Shown here one piece after another: positions 33,962-41,401 of a DNA stretch of 64,000 bases; the stretch's first letter is position 1; every line of letters begins with the position of its first letter. The position numbers were made by a program, and so were the translations under genes. Origin of the DNA: Sneathiellales bacterium (GTDB lineage: Bacteria; Pseudomonadota; Alphaproteobacteria; JANQFL01); assembly GCA_028277845.1 (NCBI GenBank), contig JANQFL010000009.1:62001-126000 (forward strand), written 5' to 3'. The notes under the pieces are model-generated. The model did no database searches and was not told where the DNA came from. It was given only the letters and a program-made list of their open reading frames with translations.

Positions 33962-35821
33962 ATGTTGGAGCGAGTGATTCAGGAGCAGCCTCGGCACGAG
34001 GTGGAGTCGGTGGTCGTGCGGTTCGCCGGCGATTCCGGTGACGGTGTACAGATCACCGGCAGTCAGTTTTCCGATACGACGGCGTTCGCCGGCAACGATT
34101 TGGCGACGTTCCCCGATTTTCCGGCCGAAATCCGCGCGCCCACGGGCACGACCTATGGTGTCTCCGCCTACCAGATCAATTTCGGCGCGCGCAAGATCCT
34201 GACCTCGGGCGACGCGCCCGATGTTCTGGTCGCGCTCAATCCGGCTGCCCTCAAGGTCAATGTCGCCGAGTTGCAGACCGGTGGCCTGATCATCGTCGAC
34301 GAGGCCACCTTCGGCGCCCGTGATCTGAAGAAGGCCGGCTACGAGACCAACCCGCTCGAAGACGGCACCCTGGATGCCTACCGCCTCCTGCCCATCGACA
34401 TCTCCGTCCGCACCCTCGAGGCCGTCAAGGAGTTCGGCCTGACGAAGAAGGAAGCGTTGCGCAGCAAGAACATGTGGACGCTGGGCCTGGTCTACTGGCT
34501 CTACGACCGGGACCGCCGATCCAGCATTGACTGGCTGCGCCAGAAGTTCGGCAAGCGGCCGGAAATCGCCGATGCCAACATCGCCGCCCTCAATGCCGGC
34601 CATGCCTTCGGCGAGACCAACGAGCTGTCGGAGGTCGGTCCCGGATACAAGGTGCCGCCGGCGGCCATCGCGCCCGGCCTGTACCGCAGCGTGACTGGCG
34701 CACAGGCGCTGGCCTGGGGCCTGGTGGCCGGCGCCCGGCTGTCGGACCTGGAACTGTTCTTCGGCTCCTACCCCATCACCCCGGCGTCTTCCATTCTGCA
34801 CACCCTGGCGGGCCTGAAGGCGTTCGGCGTCGTCACGTTCCAGGCCGAGGATGAAATCGCCGCGGTCTGCTCGGCCATCGGCGCATCCTACGGCGGCGCC
34901 CTCGGCGTGACGTCAAGCTCCGGCCCCGGCATCGCCCTGAAGGGCGAGGCGCTGGGCCTGGCGGTGGCGGTGGAACTGCCGCTGATCGTGGTCAATTCCC
35001 AGCGCGCCGGCCCGTCGACCGGCCTGCCGACCAAGACCGAACAGTCCGACCTCTATCAGGCGGTGTATGGCCGCAACGGCGACAGTCCCATGGCGGTCCT
35101 GGCTGCCCGGTCACCGTCCGATTGCTTCGAAACGGCGATCGAGGCGGCGCGGCTGGCCACCAAGTACATGACGCCGGTCATGCTGTTGACCGACGGCTAT
35201 GTGGCCAATGCCTCCGAACCGTGGCTGATCCCCGACTTCAACGACTACGAGCCGTTCCCGGTCAGCTTCTATACCGACGCGGAGGATTTCCATCCGTTCC
35301 AGCGCGACCCGGAAACCCTGGCCCGGGTCTGGGCCACACCGGGAACGCCTGGCCTGGCGCACCGCATCGGCGGCCTGGAACGGGATTACGACAGCGGCAA
35401 TGTCTCCTACGACGCCGACAACCACCAGCGCATGACCGATGTGCGGGCCGACAAGATCGCCGGCATCGCCGACGACATCCCCCAACAGACCGTCGAACTC
35501 GGCAACGACTCGGGCCGCATCGTCGTGGTCGGCTGGGGCTCGACCTACGGGCCGATCGAACGGGCCGTGACCAACATGCGGGCCGACGGATTGGACGTGT
35601 CGCACGTGCATCTGCGCCACATCTGGCCGCTGCCGCGTAACCTCGGCGACCTGCTGCGCCGTTTCGACAGGGTGCTGGTGCCGGAAATGAACACCGGACA
35701 GTTGCTGACCGTGTTGCGCAGCGAATACCTGATCGACGCCGAAGGCCTCAACAAGGTGACCGGCAAGCCCTTCAAGATCGCCGAAATCGAAGCGGCCGTG
35801 CGTACCCGGCTGGAGGATTGA
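33962..35821 (+). CDS. korA: 2-oxoacid:ferredoxin oxidoreductase, fused gamma-alpha subunit (KorA-like)
   Basis: 619-residue subunit of a 2-oxoglutarate:ferredoxin-type oxidoreductase, which decarboxylates a 2-oxoacid to acyl-CoA and reduces ferredoxin. The gamma domain is N-terminal (about 10-200, RFAGDSGDGVQITGS). The alpha/TPP pyrimidine domain follows (about 230-480, GSYPITPASSILHTLAGLK) and then domain III/transketolase C. ATG 33962 is preceded by GGAGG at longer than usual spacing. It is next to the beta subunit by one base. The typical aerobic-proteobacterial form is heterodimeric like this one. Confidence 0.92.
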   Translation: MLERVIQEQPRHEVESVVVRFAGDSGDGVQITGSQFSDTTAFAGNDLATFPDFPAEIRAPTGTTYGVSAYQINFGARKILTSGDAPDVLVALNPAALKVNVAELQTGGLIIVDEATFGARDLKKAGYETNPLEDGTLDAYRLLPIDISVRTLEAVKEFGLTKKEALRSKNMWTLGLVYWLYDRDRRSSIDWLRQKFGKRPEIADANIAALNAGHAFGETNELSEVGPGYKVPPAAIAPGLYRSVTGAQALAWGLVAGARLSDLELFFGSYPITPASSILHTLAGLKAFGVVTFQAEDEIAAVCSAIGASYGGALGVTSSSGPGIALKGEALGLAVAVELPLIVVNSQRAGPSTGLPTKTEQSDLYQAVYGRNGDSPMAVLAARSPSDCFETAIEAARLATKYMTPVMLLTDGYVANASEPWLIPDFNDYEPFPVSFYTDAEDFHPFQRDPETLARVWATPGTPGLAHRIGGLERDYDSGNVSYDADNHQRMTDVRADKIAGIADDIPQQTVELGNDSGRIVVVGWGSTYGPIERAVTNMRADGLDVSHVHLRHIWPLPRNLGDLLRRFDRVLVPEMNTGQLLTVLRSEYLIDAEGLNKVTGKPFKIAEIEAAVRTRLED

Positions 35822-35822
35822 G

Positions 35823-36854
35823 ATGAACGAAGCAGCCCTTCTCGCCAAGAAGGTCACGGCCAAGGATTACGCCTCCGACCAGGAGGTGCGCTGGTGCCCC
35901 GGTTGCGGCGACTATGCCATCGTGCGGGCGGTGCAGCGCACCCTGGCCGAACTCGATGCGCCGATGGACGAAACCGTGTTCGTCTCGGGCATCGGCTGCG
36001 CCTCGCGCTTTCCCTATTACATGGCGACCTACGGTTTCCACACCATTCACGGCCGCGCGCCGGCCATCGCCTCGGGCCTGAAACTGGCCAAGCCCGACCT
36101 GGACGTCTGGGTCATCTCGGGCGACGGCGACGCGCTCAGCATCGGCGGCAACCATCTGATGCATCTGCTGCGCCGCAACGTGGACTTGCAGTTCCTGCTG
36201 TTCAACAACGAGATCTACGGCCTGACCAAGGGACAGGCATCACCGACATCCCGCGTCGGCACCCGGTCGCCGTCGACGCCCTTGGGTTCCGTGGACCGGC
36301 CGATCTCGGCCACCCAGTTCGCCCTGGGCGCCGGCGCCCGCTTCGTCGCCCGCGGCGTCGACACCGATCAAAAACGTCTGCCCGACATCCTCAAGCGAGC
36401 CCATGCCCACAAGGGCACGTCGTTCGTCGAGATCTATCAGAATTGCATCGTCTACAACGACGGCGTGTTCGGCACCTTCACCGACAAGCCGGTGGCCGAC
36501 GACAGCCAGCTGCGCCTCGCCCACGGCGAGCCGATGATCTTCGGCAAGGAGCGGGACAAGGGCATCCGGCTCGATACCGACACCCTGAGCCTCGAGGTCG
36601 TGACCATCGGCGAGAACGGCGTGACCGAGGACGACATCCTGGTGCACGACGAAACCAACCGCACGGTGGCCACGCTGCTGGCGGCCATGGAACCGCCGAC
36701 ACTGCCGGTGGCGCTCGGCGTGCTCTACTGCGACCCCGCGCTGTCGTACGAAGCGGCGGTGCGGGACCAGATGACGGCCGCCAGGCAAAGCGGCAAGGCC
36801 GCCGATCTCAACGCCCTGCTGCGCTCGGGCCATACCTGGACGGTCGAGGGGTAG
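35823..36854 (+). CDS. korB: 2-oxoacid:ferredoxin oxidoreductase, beta subunit (KorB-like)
   Basis: 343-residue TPP-binding beta subunit. Cys pairs that bind the single [4Fe-4S] cluster are in VRWCPGCGDYA and GIGCASRFPYY; a third Cys lies in IYQNCIVYND. The TPP/Mg motif is ISGDGDALSIGGNHLMH followed by LFNNEIYGLTKGQ. ATG 35823 overlaps korA by spacing of one base, so they are coupled. The complex would use ferredoxin, bypassing or replacing the 2-oxoglutarate dehydrogenase step. Confidence 0.93.
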   Translation: MNEAALLAKKVTAKDYASDQEVRWCPGCGDYAIVRAVQRTLAELDAPMDETVFVSGIGCASRFPYYMATYGFHTIHGRAPAIASGLKLAKPDLDVWVISGDGDALSIGGNHLMHLLRRNVDLQFLLFNNEIYGLTKGQASPTSRVGTRSPSTPLGSVDRPISATQFALGAGARFVARGVDTDQKRLPDILKRAHAHKGTSFVEIYQNCIVYNDGVFGTFTDKPVADDSQLRLAHGEPMIFGKERDKGIRLDTDTLSLEVVTIGENGVTEDDILVHDETNRTVATLLAAMEPPTLPVALGVLYCDPALSYEAAVRDQMTAARQSGKAADLNALLRSGHTWTVEG

Positions 36855-37000: not shown

Positions 37001-37600
37001 ATGCCTGATTTGGAGAACGCGGCGCCGATATCCTCGGATTGGAAACCGGGCCAGCCGTTGCGGCTGGAGACCGAGAACTATGTCCTGCGGTCGTTGACGA
37101 TGGACGATCTGGGCGAACGGTACCAAAGCTGGGCGGACGATGCCGAACTGATGCGCCATTTCGGCAGCGGCGACATGTCGGTGCGCCGCATGCGCAAGCG
37201 GCTGCCCGCCTATAACAACCGGGACGCCTTCCATCTCGGCATATTCTGCAAACGCACCGGCCGGTTCATCGGCTACTATTTTGTCTACGTCACCTTGACC
37301 TGGGGTTTGGCCCGCACGTCCGTCCTGATCGGCGACCGGGACTATTGGGGCACGGGCGCCGTTCTCGAAACCCGTGCCGCGTTGCTCGATTTCCTCTTCG
37401 ATACCGTTGACCTCGAGCGGGTCTGGGGCAGGGTCAACGCGCAAAACACGCCCGCCGTCTTCAACTACAAGGCACACGGTTTCCAGGTCGAGGGCGTGCT
37501 GCGCGATGCCTATATGTTGGCGGACGGCACCAGGACCGACCAGGTCGTCTTCGGCCTCATGCGCGAGGAGTGGCACGAACAAAGGGCGCGCGGCGCATGA
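37001..37600 (+). CDS. GNAT family N-acetyltransferase
   Basis: 199-residue acetyltransferase of the RimJ/RimL-like group. N-terminal LRSLTMDDLGERYQSWADD, then VLIGDRDYWGTGAVLETRAALL (acetyl-CoA loop is of the GxGAxxE type) and WGRVNAQNTPAVFNYKAHGFQVEG, which is the RimL hallmark region. ATG 37001 is chosen; upstream in-frame sequence overlaps korB in another reading and is not family-like. Its 3' end overlaps the convergent gene at 37557 by 44 bases. Substrate (amine of a sugar, peptide or small molecule) is unknown. Confidence 0.85.
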   Translation: MPDLENAAPISSDWKPGQPLRLETENYVLRSLTMDDLGERYQSWADDAELMRHFGSGDMSVRRMRKRLPAYNNRDAFHLGIFCKRTGRFIGYYFVYVTLTWGLARTSVLIGDRDYWGTGAVLETRAALLDFLFDTVDLERVWGRVNAQNTPAVFNYKAHGFQVEGVLRDAYMLADGTRTDQVVFGLMREEWHEQRARGA

Positions 37601-38759
37601 TGGCGTCGGTTTGACGCGCGATCGTTTTTGTCTTCGTTTTCAGCCCCTGTTCGATCAACCGATGAAAGCGTTTGTCGCGGAACCAGTGCGCGTGCTGCAC
37701 CGCCATCGGCAGGAAGCCGCGGCTGATTTTATGGGGCCCGCCCGAGCCCCCGTGAATATGCGCGATACCATGTCGGATGGCGTAGTCGATGGCCTGATAG
37801 TAGACCGCTTCGAAGTGGAGAAATTTGATTTCCTCGGAACATCCCCAATACCGGGCGTACAACGTGTCGCCGTCCCGGACAAGCAGGGTGCCGCCGACAT
37901 GATCCGCGCCGCGCCGGGCGAGGATAAGGTGCAGCCGGTCGGCCAAACGGGCGCGCAGGTCGTGGAAGAATTCCGGGCGTAGCAGCAGCTTGGCGCCGTA
38001 TCTCCGATTGGTGGACCGGTAGAAGGGATAGAACCGGTCCATGTGTCCTGCCTCCAGGGACCCGCCCGTGACATGATCGAATGCGATCCCCTGCCCGGTG
38101 ATCTCCGCCCGTTCGCGGAGAATGGTGTTGCGCCGTTTGGCGCGCAGGGTTCGCACGAAGGCGTCGAACGAGTCGTATCCGTCGTTGCTCCAAAGCAACT
38201 GGATGTCCGGATCGGCGATCGCGCCCAATTGTTCAAGCGCCTCCACTTCGGCCTTTGACGCGTAGTTGACATGCACCGACGACAGGGTGTTGCGCTCCGC
38301 AAATCCCGAAGCCGCGGCAAACAGGATTTTCAGTAGGGTCGCCTTGTCCGTATCCGGACCTGTGAGAAGCCTGGGACCGCCGATGGGAGTCAGCGGCACC
38401 TCGAACTGGAGTTTCGGATAGTAGGCCCCCGGGAAATCCGCGTGGTGTCTGTCCCAGCCCTTGTCGGTGCCGTACTCCCCTTCCGAATGCTCCTTCACGT
38501 AGGCGGGGGCGACCGCCGCCACGGTGCCGTCGGGCTCTTCAATGACGAAGTGACACGGCGCGTAACCCGTTTCCGGACCGACCGAACGGCTGTCTTCGAG
38601 CGCGGACAGATAGGCATGGGTGACGAATACGTTGCCGTGCGCGGCGCAGCGGTCCCACTCTTGTGGACCGACGTCCGCCATGCGCCTGGCGACACGGACC
38701 CGGTAATGGGGTTTCCGCGATGAATCGGCGGGTCGCGTGCCGGCCGGGCGCTTGCCCAT
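37557..38759 (-). CDS. COG3146/DUF482-type acyltransferase (GNAT-like, FemAB-related)
   Basis: About 400-residue protein that resembles the COG3146 family: a first half with HGNVFVTHAYLSALEDS and a second GNAT-like half with GGTLLVRDGDTLYARYWGC and HGIAHIHGGSGGPHKISRGF. Family members are thought to aminoacylate or acylate peptide-like substrates; none is firmly assigned. I take ATG 38759; a TTG at 38789 in frame would add 10 residues. It is divergent from the CphA-like gene (212-base gap) and its 3' end overlaps the GNAT gene. Confidence 0.8.
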   Translation of the reverse strand: MGKRPAGTRPADSSRKPHYRVRVARRMADVGPQEWDRCAAHGNVFVTHAYLSALEDSRSVGPETGYAPCHFVIEEPDGTVAAVAPAYVKEHSEGEYGTDKGWDRHHADFPGAYYPKLQFEVPLTPIGGPRLLTGPDTDKATLLKILFAAASGFAERNTLSSVHVNYASKAEVEALEQLGAIADPDIQLLWSNDGYDSFDAFVRTLRAKRRNTILRERAEITGQGIAFDHVTGGSLEAGHMDRFYPFYRSTNRRYGAKLLLRPEFFHDLRARLADRLHLILARRGADHVGGTLLVRDGDTLYARYWGCSEEIKFLHFEAVYYQAIDYAIRHGIAHIHGGSGGPHKISRGFLPMAVQHAHWFRDKRFHRLIEQGLKTKTKTIARQTDAIMRRAPFVRATPRA

Positions 38760-38971
38760 CACCGCGCCGTCCGCATCCAGGTGTTGCAAAAACGCTTATC
38801 CATGCCCTTGATAACCTGCTTTACTGCATGTGCCATGGAACCACGCGATAAATCCAGACCGAGTGGCCCGGAGATGTCAATCACTTGCCCGCCGGCAACG
38901 GAAATTAAAGGTCCCGGCCGCCGTTCTCGGTCTCCCGCCATCCGTGTTCTTTTGAGCCGCCGACCGTCCTC
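38760..38971. promoter_or_regulatory. divergent promoter region between COG3146-type and CphA-like genes
   Basis: 212 bases shared by two divergent genes; it must hold both promoters. No obvious operator or -35/-10 pair stands out. Confidence 0.35.
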
Positions 38972-41401
38972 ATGAAGATCGTTGCGACAAGAAGCATGCA
39001 GGGGGCCAGCGTCCTGGCGCCGTGCCCCATCGTCTACCTGCGTGTCGACGTGTCGGAGACGGGGGGGCGAACGACCGCCGAATTGGGCGGCGACTTCATT
39101 GAACGCCTTGTTCGCCTGCTGCCCGGCCTGACCCGGGGGACGAACAGTTTCCGGGAACAACAGACGTTCGCACACATGCTGATGTCGGAAAGCGGCGCGC
39201 CGTTGGGGTTGCTGGCCGCGCGCATTGCCGTCGAGCTCCAGCAACTGGCCGGTTCGCAGGTCCGCCTCGGCAGCATGATGAGCCAGGAAGGCGCCGGCAG
39301 CCAGGAACTCTATTTCGAATTCGAGGATGAAAGGATCGGCAGGGCGGCCGGTGAATTTGCCGTCCGCGTCATAAATTCGCTCCGGCCCGAACCGGCGGAC
39401 GGCGGTGATCCGGCCGATACCGTGGACGATCTTTCCGCCGAACTCGCCACCTTCCGGGACTGGGCACGGCAACACACCATGCTGCCCGGCACCGTGCTCC
39501 TGGTACGGGAGGCGCGCCGGCGCAACATCCCCTGGATCCGGCTTGACCATCAAACCGACAACATCATGCTGGGGCAAGGCCGCTGGCGCCGGCTGGTCGC
39601 CGGAAACCTGCCGGATACGAATTCGTCCGTCGGCGTGCAACTCGCCTTGGGCGAACTCGGGCCGGGACGGTATCTCAGGGACGTCAATCTTCCGGCGTCG
39701 CGGCGCGTGCCGGTCACCGATGTGGACGAGGCCATCCGGATTGCCGGAGACTGGGACTACCCGGTTGCCTTGCTGGCGGGCCGCCGCGGCGGTGTCAGCC
39801 AATTCGGCGAAGCCTTGGACACGGCGGATGACATCCGCGCTGCCTGGCAAACCGGCGGCCCGCAATCGAAACACCGGATTCTGTGCCAGTGGGCCGCCGG
39901 GCGGCGTCATGCCGTCCTGGTCGTCGGCAATGAAGTGGTGGCCGCGTCCGGACGGGAAGCCGCCGGGGAGGCGTCATGGCATCCCGACAATCTATCGGCG
40001 TGCGTGCGGGCGGCCGCGGTTCTCGGCTTGCCGGTCGCGGAGGTGGGGTTTGTCACGGCCGATCCCGCCATGTCGTGGCAACACCGGCCGGCATTGATCA
40101 GCGATGTCAATCCGTCGCCCGATCTCGCCTGGTTCCAGTCCCGCGACGCATCGGTCAACATTGCCGGCGCCGTGCTGGACACCATGTTTGCCGGCAATCC
40201 GACCGGCCGTGTCCCGGTCGCCGCCGTGACCGGGACAAACGGCAAATCGACGACCACGCGCATGCTCGCGCATATCCTGTCGGTTGACGGCCGCGTGGCC
40301 GGATATGCGACGACCAACGGGGCCTACATCGGCGAACAACGCATCGTTCCGCTGGATGTCGCCGGCCGGTCCGGTGCCTGGGCGGTGCTGCGCGATCCAC
40401 GGACCGAAGTGGCGGTGCTGGAGACGGCCCGCGGCGGCCTCGCCAGGCACGGCGCCGGCATCGATCTTTGCGACGTGAGTGCCGTCACCAATGTGACCGA
40501 CGATCATCTTGGCGCCGACGGCATCGAAACCATCGAGGGACTCGCCCGGGTCAAACGGATCGTGCCGGACCTGACGCGCGGCACGGCCGTTCTCAATGCC
40601 GACGACGCCCGGTGCCTGGCCATGGCCGAGGCGACGCCGGCAAAACGGGTTTGCCTGGTTTCGCTCGACCCGGACAACACGGCGGTGCGCGCGCATCTGG
40701 ACGAAAGGGGCTGTGTGGTCGTGCTCGAACCGGACCCGCAGGGCGGGGTGATCGTCCTTTATGAAAACGGCCGACGGCAAGAGCTCATGCCGGCGCGGAA
40801 CATTCCCGCCACCATGAACGGCAAGGCGGTGCACAATGTGCAGAACGCGATGTTCGCCGCCGGCATGGCGCGCGGACTGGGCGTGCCGGCCGACGTCATT
40901 CGCGGGGCCTTGTCCACATTCGCCAATACCCGGGAGATGTCGCCCGGGCGGCTCAATATTGTCCAAACACCGGGCGGCGTGACCGTCGTCATCGACTATG
41001 CGCACAACCCGGAAAGCATGGCCGTGACCTGTGACGCGGTCGACTCGATCGACGCCCGGGGCCATCGGATTTGCGTGGCCACCACCGTCGGGAACCGCCA
41101 CGCCGGACACATCGGCCGTGCCGCGCGCATACTGGCCGGTCGCTTCGACCGGTATGTTTGCGGCCGCGACGATACGTTCGGAGACCACTTCGACACATCA
41201 CGCGGGTTTCCCGCCGAACAGCTTCCCGCGCGCGTGGCCGAGGCCCTGGTGGAGCACGGTGTCGCCGAATCGGCCATCGAAATCTCCGAGGGATTTCACG
41301 ATGCCGTCGACCGCGGGCTGGGTTTGGCGCAGTCAGGCGATCTTGTGCTGATATTGACGGACGATTACGAGTGGTGTTGGGACCGGGTGCAGGAAAGCTG
41401 A
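38972..41401 (+). CDS. cyanophycin-synthetase-like protein with decayed ATP-grasp domain and intact Mur ligase domain
   Basis: 809 residues, shorter than usual CphA (about 870-900). N-terminal CphA domain (1 to about 135, ending LQQLAGSQVRLG and EDERIGRAAGEFAVR) is well kept. The ATP-grasp domain (about 150-400) is damaged: the Lys-Pro of the ATP site reads PVALLAGRRGG, the VERFV-like segment reads LCQWAAG, the metal Glu/Asn region reads ISDVNPSPD, and some 80 residues are absent. The Mur ligase half (415-805) is intact: P-loop GTNGKSTTTRML, ETARGGLARH, VTNVTDDHLGA and IDYAHNPES. So it probably still couples ATP to one amide ligation but cannot do both CphA steps. Substrate unknown. Confidence 0.85.
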   Translation: MKIVATRSMQGASVLAPCPIVYLRVDVSETGGRTTAELGGDFIERLVRLLPGLTRGTNSFREQQTFAHMLMSESGAPLGLLAARIAVELQQLAGSQVRLGSMMSQEGAGSQELYFEFEDERIGRAAGEFAVRVINSLRPEPADGGDPADTVDDLSAELATFRDWARQHTMLPGTVLLVREARRRNIPWIRLDHQTDNIMLGQGRWRRLVAGNLPDTNSSVGVQLALGELGPGRYLRDVNLPASRRVPVTDVDEAIRIAGDWDYPVALLAGRRGGVSQFGEALDTADDIRAAWQTGGPQSKHRILCQWAAGRRHAVLVVGNEVVAASGREAAGEASWHPDNLSACVRAAAVLGLPVAEVGFVTADPAMSWQHRPALISDVNPSPDLAWFQSRDASVNIAGAVLDTMFAGNPTGRVPVAAVTGTNGKSTTTRMLAHILSVDGRVAGYATTNGAYIGEQRIVPLDVAGRSGAWAVLRDPRTEVAVLETARGGLARHGAGIDLCDVSAVTNVTDDHLGADGIETIEGLARVKRIVPDLTRGTAVLNADDARCLAMAEATPAKRVCLVSLDPDNTAVRAHLDERGCVVVLEPDPQGGVIVLYENGRRQELMPARNIPATMNGKAVHNVQNAMFAAGMARGLGVPADVIRGALSTFANTREMSPGRLNIVQTPGGVTVVIDYAHNPESMAVTCDAVDSIDARGHRICVATTVGNRHAGHIGRAARILAGRFDRYVCGRDDTFGDHFDTSRGFPAEQLPARVAEALVEHGVAESAIEISEGFHDAVDRGLGLAQSGDLVLILTDDYEWCWDRVQES

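Follow-up and report, generated by a model that had tools for sequence, protein, structure and literature searches.

The window, a stretch of 64,000 nucleotides from a Sneathiellales bacterium (assembly GCA_028277845.1, contig JANQFL010000009.1), contains on its forward strand an unbroken open reading frame (38972–41401) for a CphA-family protein of 809 residues, termed P0001, which is composed of an N domain, a degenerate ATP-grasp (G) half devoid of the G-omega module and an intact Mur-ligase (M) half. The surrounding genes code for FemAB-like, NUDIX and PHO4 proteins, and no other CphA gene adjoins. The FemAB-like N-acyltransferase gene (37557–38789, reverse strand; PF04339, E 3e-115) is the divergent neighbour of the P0001 gene; at 33962–36854 (forward strand) a large subunit with POR domains is followed by the apparent small subunit of a 2-oxoacid:ferredoxin oxidoreductase.

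In a Pfam scan P0001 matched the CphA N domain (E 8e-16) along with Mur_ligase_M (2e-19) and Mur_ligase_C (3e-15); even with the threshold relaxed to E≤1, none of the ATP-grasp families was hit. The score against the cyanophycin synthetase model of NCBIfam (TIGR02068) is 525.4 bits and thus lies under the cut-off of 850 bits. A PDB search matched CphA1 structures in two stretches covering N plus G (residues 1–329) and M (335–806), between which about 80 residues of the CphA1 targets stayed unmatched, and the M half is 42–44% identical to proteobacterial CphA1. P0001 shares the catalytic core of Mur ligases with MurE but carries the N and G domains of CphA instead of the MurE substrate domain; the best MurE-model score, confined to the M region, is 93 bits against a cut-off of 373 bits, and the TM-score to MurE is 0.40 when normalised by the query. 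Both the Pfam N and M domains and a predicted structure (see below) indicate the N-G-M architecture and fold of CphA1. Functional residues were read from an alignment of P0001 to SuCphA1 and 75 CphA proteins. Among the columns whose invariance across the CphA1 panel reaches 95% or more, P0001 keeps 29 of 76 in Gcore, 3 of 15 in Glid and 0 of 25 in G-omega, compared with 70 of 83 in Mcore and 20 of 28 in Mlid.

The N domain spans approximately residues 1–167 (38972–39472), with the PF18921 match at residues 24–137. The sequence-only reading had considered this domain intact, which holds for the fold but not for the metallopeptidase site that makes primers: the motif C-x19-HxxEH, present in most although not all CphA1, is absent and its positions are occupied by N, L, A and R. 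The closest relatives of P0001 likewise do without it.

In TeCphA1 the G half is divided into Gcore (162–234, 306–324 and 400–487), Glid (235–305) and G-omega (325–399); Gcore serves as dimer and oligomer interface, G-omega as the binding site of the incoming aspartate (PMC9427784). In P0001 the remnant of Gcore1, Glid and Gcore2 was aligned to approximately residues 168–330 (39473–39961) and is modelled confidently except for residues 271–277. Within this remnant, the phosphate-binding loop at residues 264–276 (39761–39799) is lost, PVALLAGRRGGVS replacing PVVIKPLDGNHGR, and the second ATP segment at residues 304–310 (39881–39901) has degenerated from VERYYEG to LCQWAAG, as seen in both the PDB search and the alignment. 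The deletion junction follows at approximately residues 330–337 (39959–39982), where G-omega is missing (TeCphA1 325–399, boundaries from PMC9427784), and a remnant of the last Gcore segment extends over approximately residues 337–413 (39980–40210) with the Mg ligand E450 changed to D and R458 to A. Further exchanges are K220 to E, K261 to a residue other than lysine (PVALLAG), R309 to A and D431 to G; P0001 has lost N394 and S396 but retains R323, and the position of H267 is taken by G or R, the alignment being unsure there. The G site of P0001 has neither the ATP lysines nor the Mg ligands nor the polymer-binding arginine. In TeCphA1, alanine changes at E215, H267, R309, N394, R323 or R458 impair or lower the activity (PMC9427784). 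Of G-omega, about 70 residues long, only 5–7 of 75 columns are left, while Gcore and Glid are near full length. The three losses claimed from the sequence, those of the ATP lysine, of the second ATP segment and of about 80 residues, are thereby borne out by the CphA alignment, the last one corresponding to the G-omega module. The end branch of P0001 in a tree of Gcore and Glid amounts to 3.76 changes per column, compared with 0.88 and 0.85 for two CphA paralogs of the same genome, C8 and C123 (see below); in the M tree it is 0.78 versus 0.93 for C8, indicating that constraint was lost in G alone. Judged by its sequence, the G half of P0001 is a pseudo-ATP-grasp domain.

The M half, in contrast, retains every catalytic residue, in line with its earlier description as intact. 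Mcore extends over approximately residues 414–654 (40211–40933; Pfam and alignment) and includes the P-loop TGTNGKST at residues 420–427 (40229–40252), while the lid comprises approximately residues 655–809 (40934–41398) and keeps the equivalents of R731 and H748. The letters of the site, N497, K499, S500, T522, E558, D585, H586, H692, R731 and H748, are all functional ones, the exchange of T500 for S being conservative. On these grounds, the M domain is presumably active. With G destroyed and only M intact, P0001 alone would be unable to run the two-step cycle of CphA1, as had been concluded before.

The lid deviates from that of CphA1 by VGNRH in place of PGDRR, F in place of E835 and an insertion of about seven residues (DDTFGDHFDTSRGF, 41174–41194) in the loop that corresponds to the one with the DNPR motif in MurE. 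In MurE this motif recognises the side chain of the amino acid to be added. It is a key motif of that enzyme (PMC3681970), and the altered pocket loop makes it possible, as far as the alignment goes, that P0001 uses an amino acid other than arginine. A pocket that differs from that of CphA1 would also suit a stand-alone ligase: independently of other CphAs, M would then couple an amino acid to an acceptor of another kind, be it a small molecule, another peptide or a protein. We consider this rather unlikely, inasmuch as 70 of the 83 Mcore invariants are kept and the insertion occurs at the same position in both members of a CphA pair from another genome (L038), which are bifunctional with an intact G; the altered loop thus does not follow the loss of G.

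AlphaFold2, given an alignment of 59 CphA sequences, modelled P0001 with a mean pLDDT of 87.5 and a pTM of 0.86; the only segments below a pLDDT of 50 are residues 271–277 in the G phosphate loop and 330–332 at the deletion scar. Foldseek placed CphA1 structures first, with a TM-score of 0.86 to substrate-bound TeCphA1 (7wae) over N, G and M. The model is compatible with P0001 keeping the CphA1 fold without G-omega, and this is a matter of compatibility rather than independent proof because the input alignment consisted entirely of CphA. Compared with the CphA1 structures (PDB 7lgn, 7wae and 7lgj), P0001 is alike in N-G-M order, fold (TM 0.77–0.86) and M letters but differs in its destroyed ATP-grasp site, the absent G-omega, the absent metallopeptidase site of N and the enlarged M-lid loop. 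Two trivial explanations for the gap were ruled out. Alignment and model contain no ATP-grasp site that is intact with shifted residues, and a frameshift or sequencing error is contradicted by the absence of any G-omega-like sequence in all frames of the window and by an even GC3 of 0.78–0.80 across the N, G and M segments of the gene; the loss in G is real.

Most G invariants being lost and two other paralogs being present in the genome, P0001 might be regarded as a cphA duplicate that recently became redundant and is decaying into a functionless pseudogene. We deem this improbable in view of the open frame with normal GC3 throughout, the confident model, an M domain evolving no faster than that of C8, and a deletion that coincides precisely with a single structural module and has independent counterparts elsewhere. 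Since Gcore is the oligomer interface of CphA1 (PMC9427784) and its fold is preserved in the model, P0001 could also act as a regulatory subunit with little catalysis of its own, whose N and M domains bind growing chains and set the length, the initiation or the assembly of the C8 enzyme. This role appears highly improbable, as binding alone would not need the full set of M catalytic residues that P0001 has kept.

The genome harbours two further CphA homologues, and its three paralogs lie on three contigs with no operon in common. C8 (878 residues) is full-length, and its G and M letters are intact apart from three positions, H267 (K), E215 (S) and N497 (D); both domains are apparently intact by this criterion, and C8 could perform both steps alone. 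C123 (L118:5205-7565, G000:C123), whose gene adjoins that of a PPK2 polyphosphate kinase, is competent in G and defective in M: the G letters (MKKKRRNADER) are intact except for K267, M215 and A396, whereas the M domain is dead, with the P-loop CGGGATTQA, H586 lost and the lid absent. CphA2 (PDB 7ta5 and 8fxh) resembles P0001 as a CphA relative left with one ligase site, but the site left to it is G, with both the M P-loop and Mlid being absent (PMC9427784), the reverse of P0001. By its residues C123 has this CphA2 arrangement, of which P0001 is the mirror image. The sequence-only reading, correct about the pseudo-G and the intact M, had treated the protein alone, although the genome also holds C8 and C123.

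Neither cyanophycinase (TIGR02069) nor IaaA (PF01112) was found in the genome by a search with these two models, and a normal cyanophycin cycle is consequently doubtful. The lack of detected degradation genes would fit the stand-alone ligase, as would the location of the P0001 gene, apart from the other CphAs and divergent from that of the FemAB-like N-acyltransferase. No functional partner common to C8, C123, the L038 pair, G078:C108 and G181 emerged from their gene neighbourhoods.

Close relatives of the genome were absent from the genome set. In the M tree P0001 groups with the L038 pair (bootstrap/SH-aLRT 97/87), and all three fall into an alphaproteobacterial clade with C8 and proteins of G078 and G181 (99/96). 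The L038 proteins are encoded by two full-length CphA genes in tandem (L038:5234-10697) in a Rhodospirillales MAG; beyond their intact G they have K at H267 and no metallopeptidase motif in the N domain. Across this clade the G domains carry K, F or S at H267, E215 is lost in most members and the M-lid loops are altered. An orthologue with the deletion of P0001 was found neither in a draw of 385 from the class nor in a draw of 398 from the phylum nor among named GTDB contigs. The search for the same deletion in other proteins, which had been proposed earlier, thus yielded convergent G-omega losses but no orthologue. Two candidates per genome were scored in the large draws, which hid third copies and implies that M-only forms are under-counted; the pair of G078 described next came to light only through complete scoring of individual genomes.

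In the alphaproteobacterium G078 (L219:3939-8208, G078:C8) an M-only gene is followed on the same strand by a G-only CphA gene. The M-only protein (648 residues, M letters NKSTEDHHRH) has lost nearly all of G, and the G-only gene starts 7 bp past its stop. This tandem pair shows the same split of ligase sites as P0001 and C123 and belongs to the same alphaproteobacterial CphA clade, but its genes are adjacent and its M-only member is of different ancestry: a single clade of P0001 and the G078 M-only protein was rejected (AU p 1.4e-6), from which we conclude that loss or splitting off of G arose at least twice in the alphaproteobacterial clade. An arginase-family gene is located near the pair (L219:946-1950). 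The loss of M recurs as well, in C123, G080, G207, G183 and a betaproteobacterium-like tandem (L199). For the G-only CphAs of G080, G183, G207 and G366 no M-only partner was found, so that pairing of the two forms is not obligatory.

M-only CphAs were also detected in Deinococcus. Those of D. taeanensis and Deinococcus sp. KNUC1210 have lost G-omega and that of D. deserti most of G (WP_225523393, WP_239051849 and WP_012695043); they form one clade beside Deinococcus CphA and occur beside canonical CphA. Like P0001 they combine an intact M with the loss of G-omega, but they are of independent origin and one of them belongs to a cyanophycin operon: on a plasmid of KNUC1210 (L218:5310-7809) cphA, an isoaspartyl peptidase gene, a cyanophycinase gene and a gene for a Mur ligase without G-omega are arranged in this order. 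The last of these is annotated as overlapping frames of 693 and 144 residues, which may stem from a frameshift or mean that the lid is truly split. On a plasmid of Legionella adelaidensis (L140:6001-9645) the gene of a 622-residue N-M CphA without G precedes those of cyanophycinase and isoaspartyl peptidase. In every genome where both forms could be assessed, namely that of the window, G078, D. taeanensis, D. deserti, KNUC1210 and, with its tandem partner, Ruegeria, the M-only form is accompanied by a CphA with a competent G. Elsewhere, M-only forms adjoin or accompany CphA or cyanophycin genes, which speaks against the stand-alone ligase. The open-access literature that was searched contained no description of M-only CphAs.

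A further group is formed by Mur-ligase proteins of about 580 residues encoded with cphA1 in 71 of 81 loci (L039-L117, e.g. L039:9560-11287; also L215:6817-8550), a frequency biased by the choice of the loci with CphA-derived patterns. Their predicted structure is closer to CphA1 (TM 0.81–0.83) than to MurE (0.56), which suggests that the gene after cphA1, widespread under the name "Mur ligase family protein", codes for a CphA minus its ATP-grasp half. These partners (e.g. WP_117873666, L215) resemble P0001 in their kept M letters and absent G site but differ in having lost almost all of G and in adjoining cphA1; 13 of them constitute a separate clade of the M tree (SH-aLRT 100) with P0001 outside. 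Two short overlapping Mur-ligase-like frames on a plasmid of Paracoccus sp. MC1862 (L217:4007-4764) possibly represent a decayed cphA1 partner.

Taken from the sequence comparisons, P0001 has a destroyed G and an intact M, a reciprocal paralog exists in the same genome, the split occurs in tandem elsewhere and such forms have independent origins; the retained fold is a prediction of the model. We somewhat favour a scenario in which P0001 is the G-inactive, M-active subunit for side-chain addition within a divided cyanophycin-like synthetase; the activity of M, the cooperation with C8 or C123 and the nature of substrate and product are inferred. Points against it are the scattering of the three genes over three contigs, a C8 that may suffice for both steps, the G-only CphAs lacking a detected M-only partner and the doubtful cyanophycin cycle. 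Using ATP, the M domain of P0001 would link the side-chain carboxylate of the aspartate at the chain end to an amino acid, while its G domain, with G-omega deleted, would bind neither ATP nor substrate and serve solely as a structural scaffold. The backbone step would be contributed by C8 with both domains and/or by the CphA2-like C123 with ATP-grasp activity only. P0001 and these partners might assemble into a mixed oligomer or act successively on one chain; alternatively, β-aspartyl dipeptides might be made and then polymerised by C123. The presence of C8 and the reciprocal C123, the G078 tandem pair and the loss of G-omega beside CphA in Deinococcus render a divided synthetase working on the usual aspartate side chain at least as likely as the different acceptor suggested before. 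As a precedent, an engineered SuCphA1 heterodimer, G−M+N+/G+M−N− according to the legend of Fig. 4c, makes cyanophycin at a rate similar to that of a one-sided control (PMC9262961), the main text of that paper naming the Fig. 4c heterodimers by their N-domain sites and the legend by the G/M split. Tentatively, we also envisage that the product of the alphaproteobacterial CphA clade is not cyanophycin but another polymer made by division of labour, P0001 building β-aspartyl units, or decorating them, with a non-arginine amino acid and a CphA2-like G-only enzyme polymerising them; the altered G loops (H267, E215), the altered M-lid loops and the lack of detected cyanophycinase and IaaA in the genome point in this direction.

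CphA2 exemplifies a CphA that survived with its ATP-grasp site only, and P0001 is the counterpart with the Mur-ligase site only. The findings suggest that an enzyme normally housing both activities has been divided among specialised partners. Such repeated opposite losses constitute a natural test of whether the CphA1 cycle can run between separate proteins, as it can in the engineered SuCphA1 heterodimers, and of whether cyanophycin is replaced by other isopeptide polymers in some lineages.
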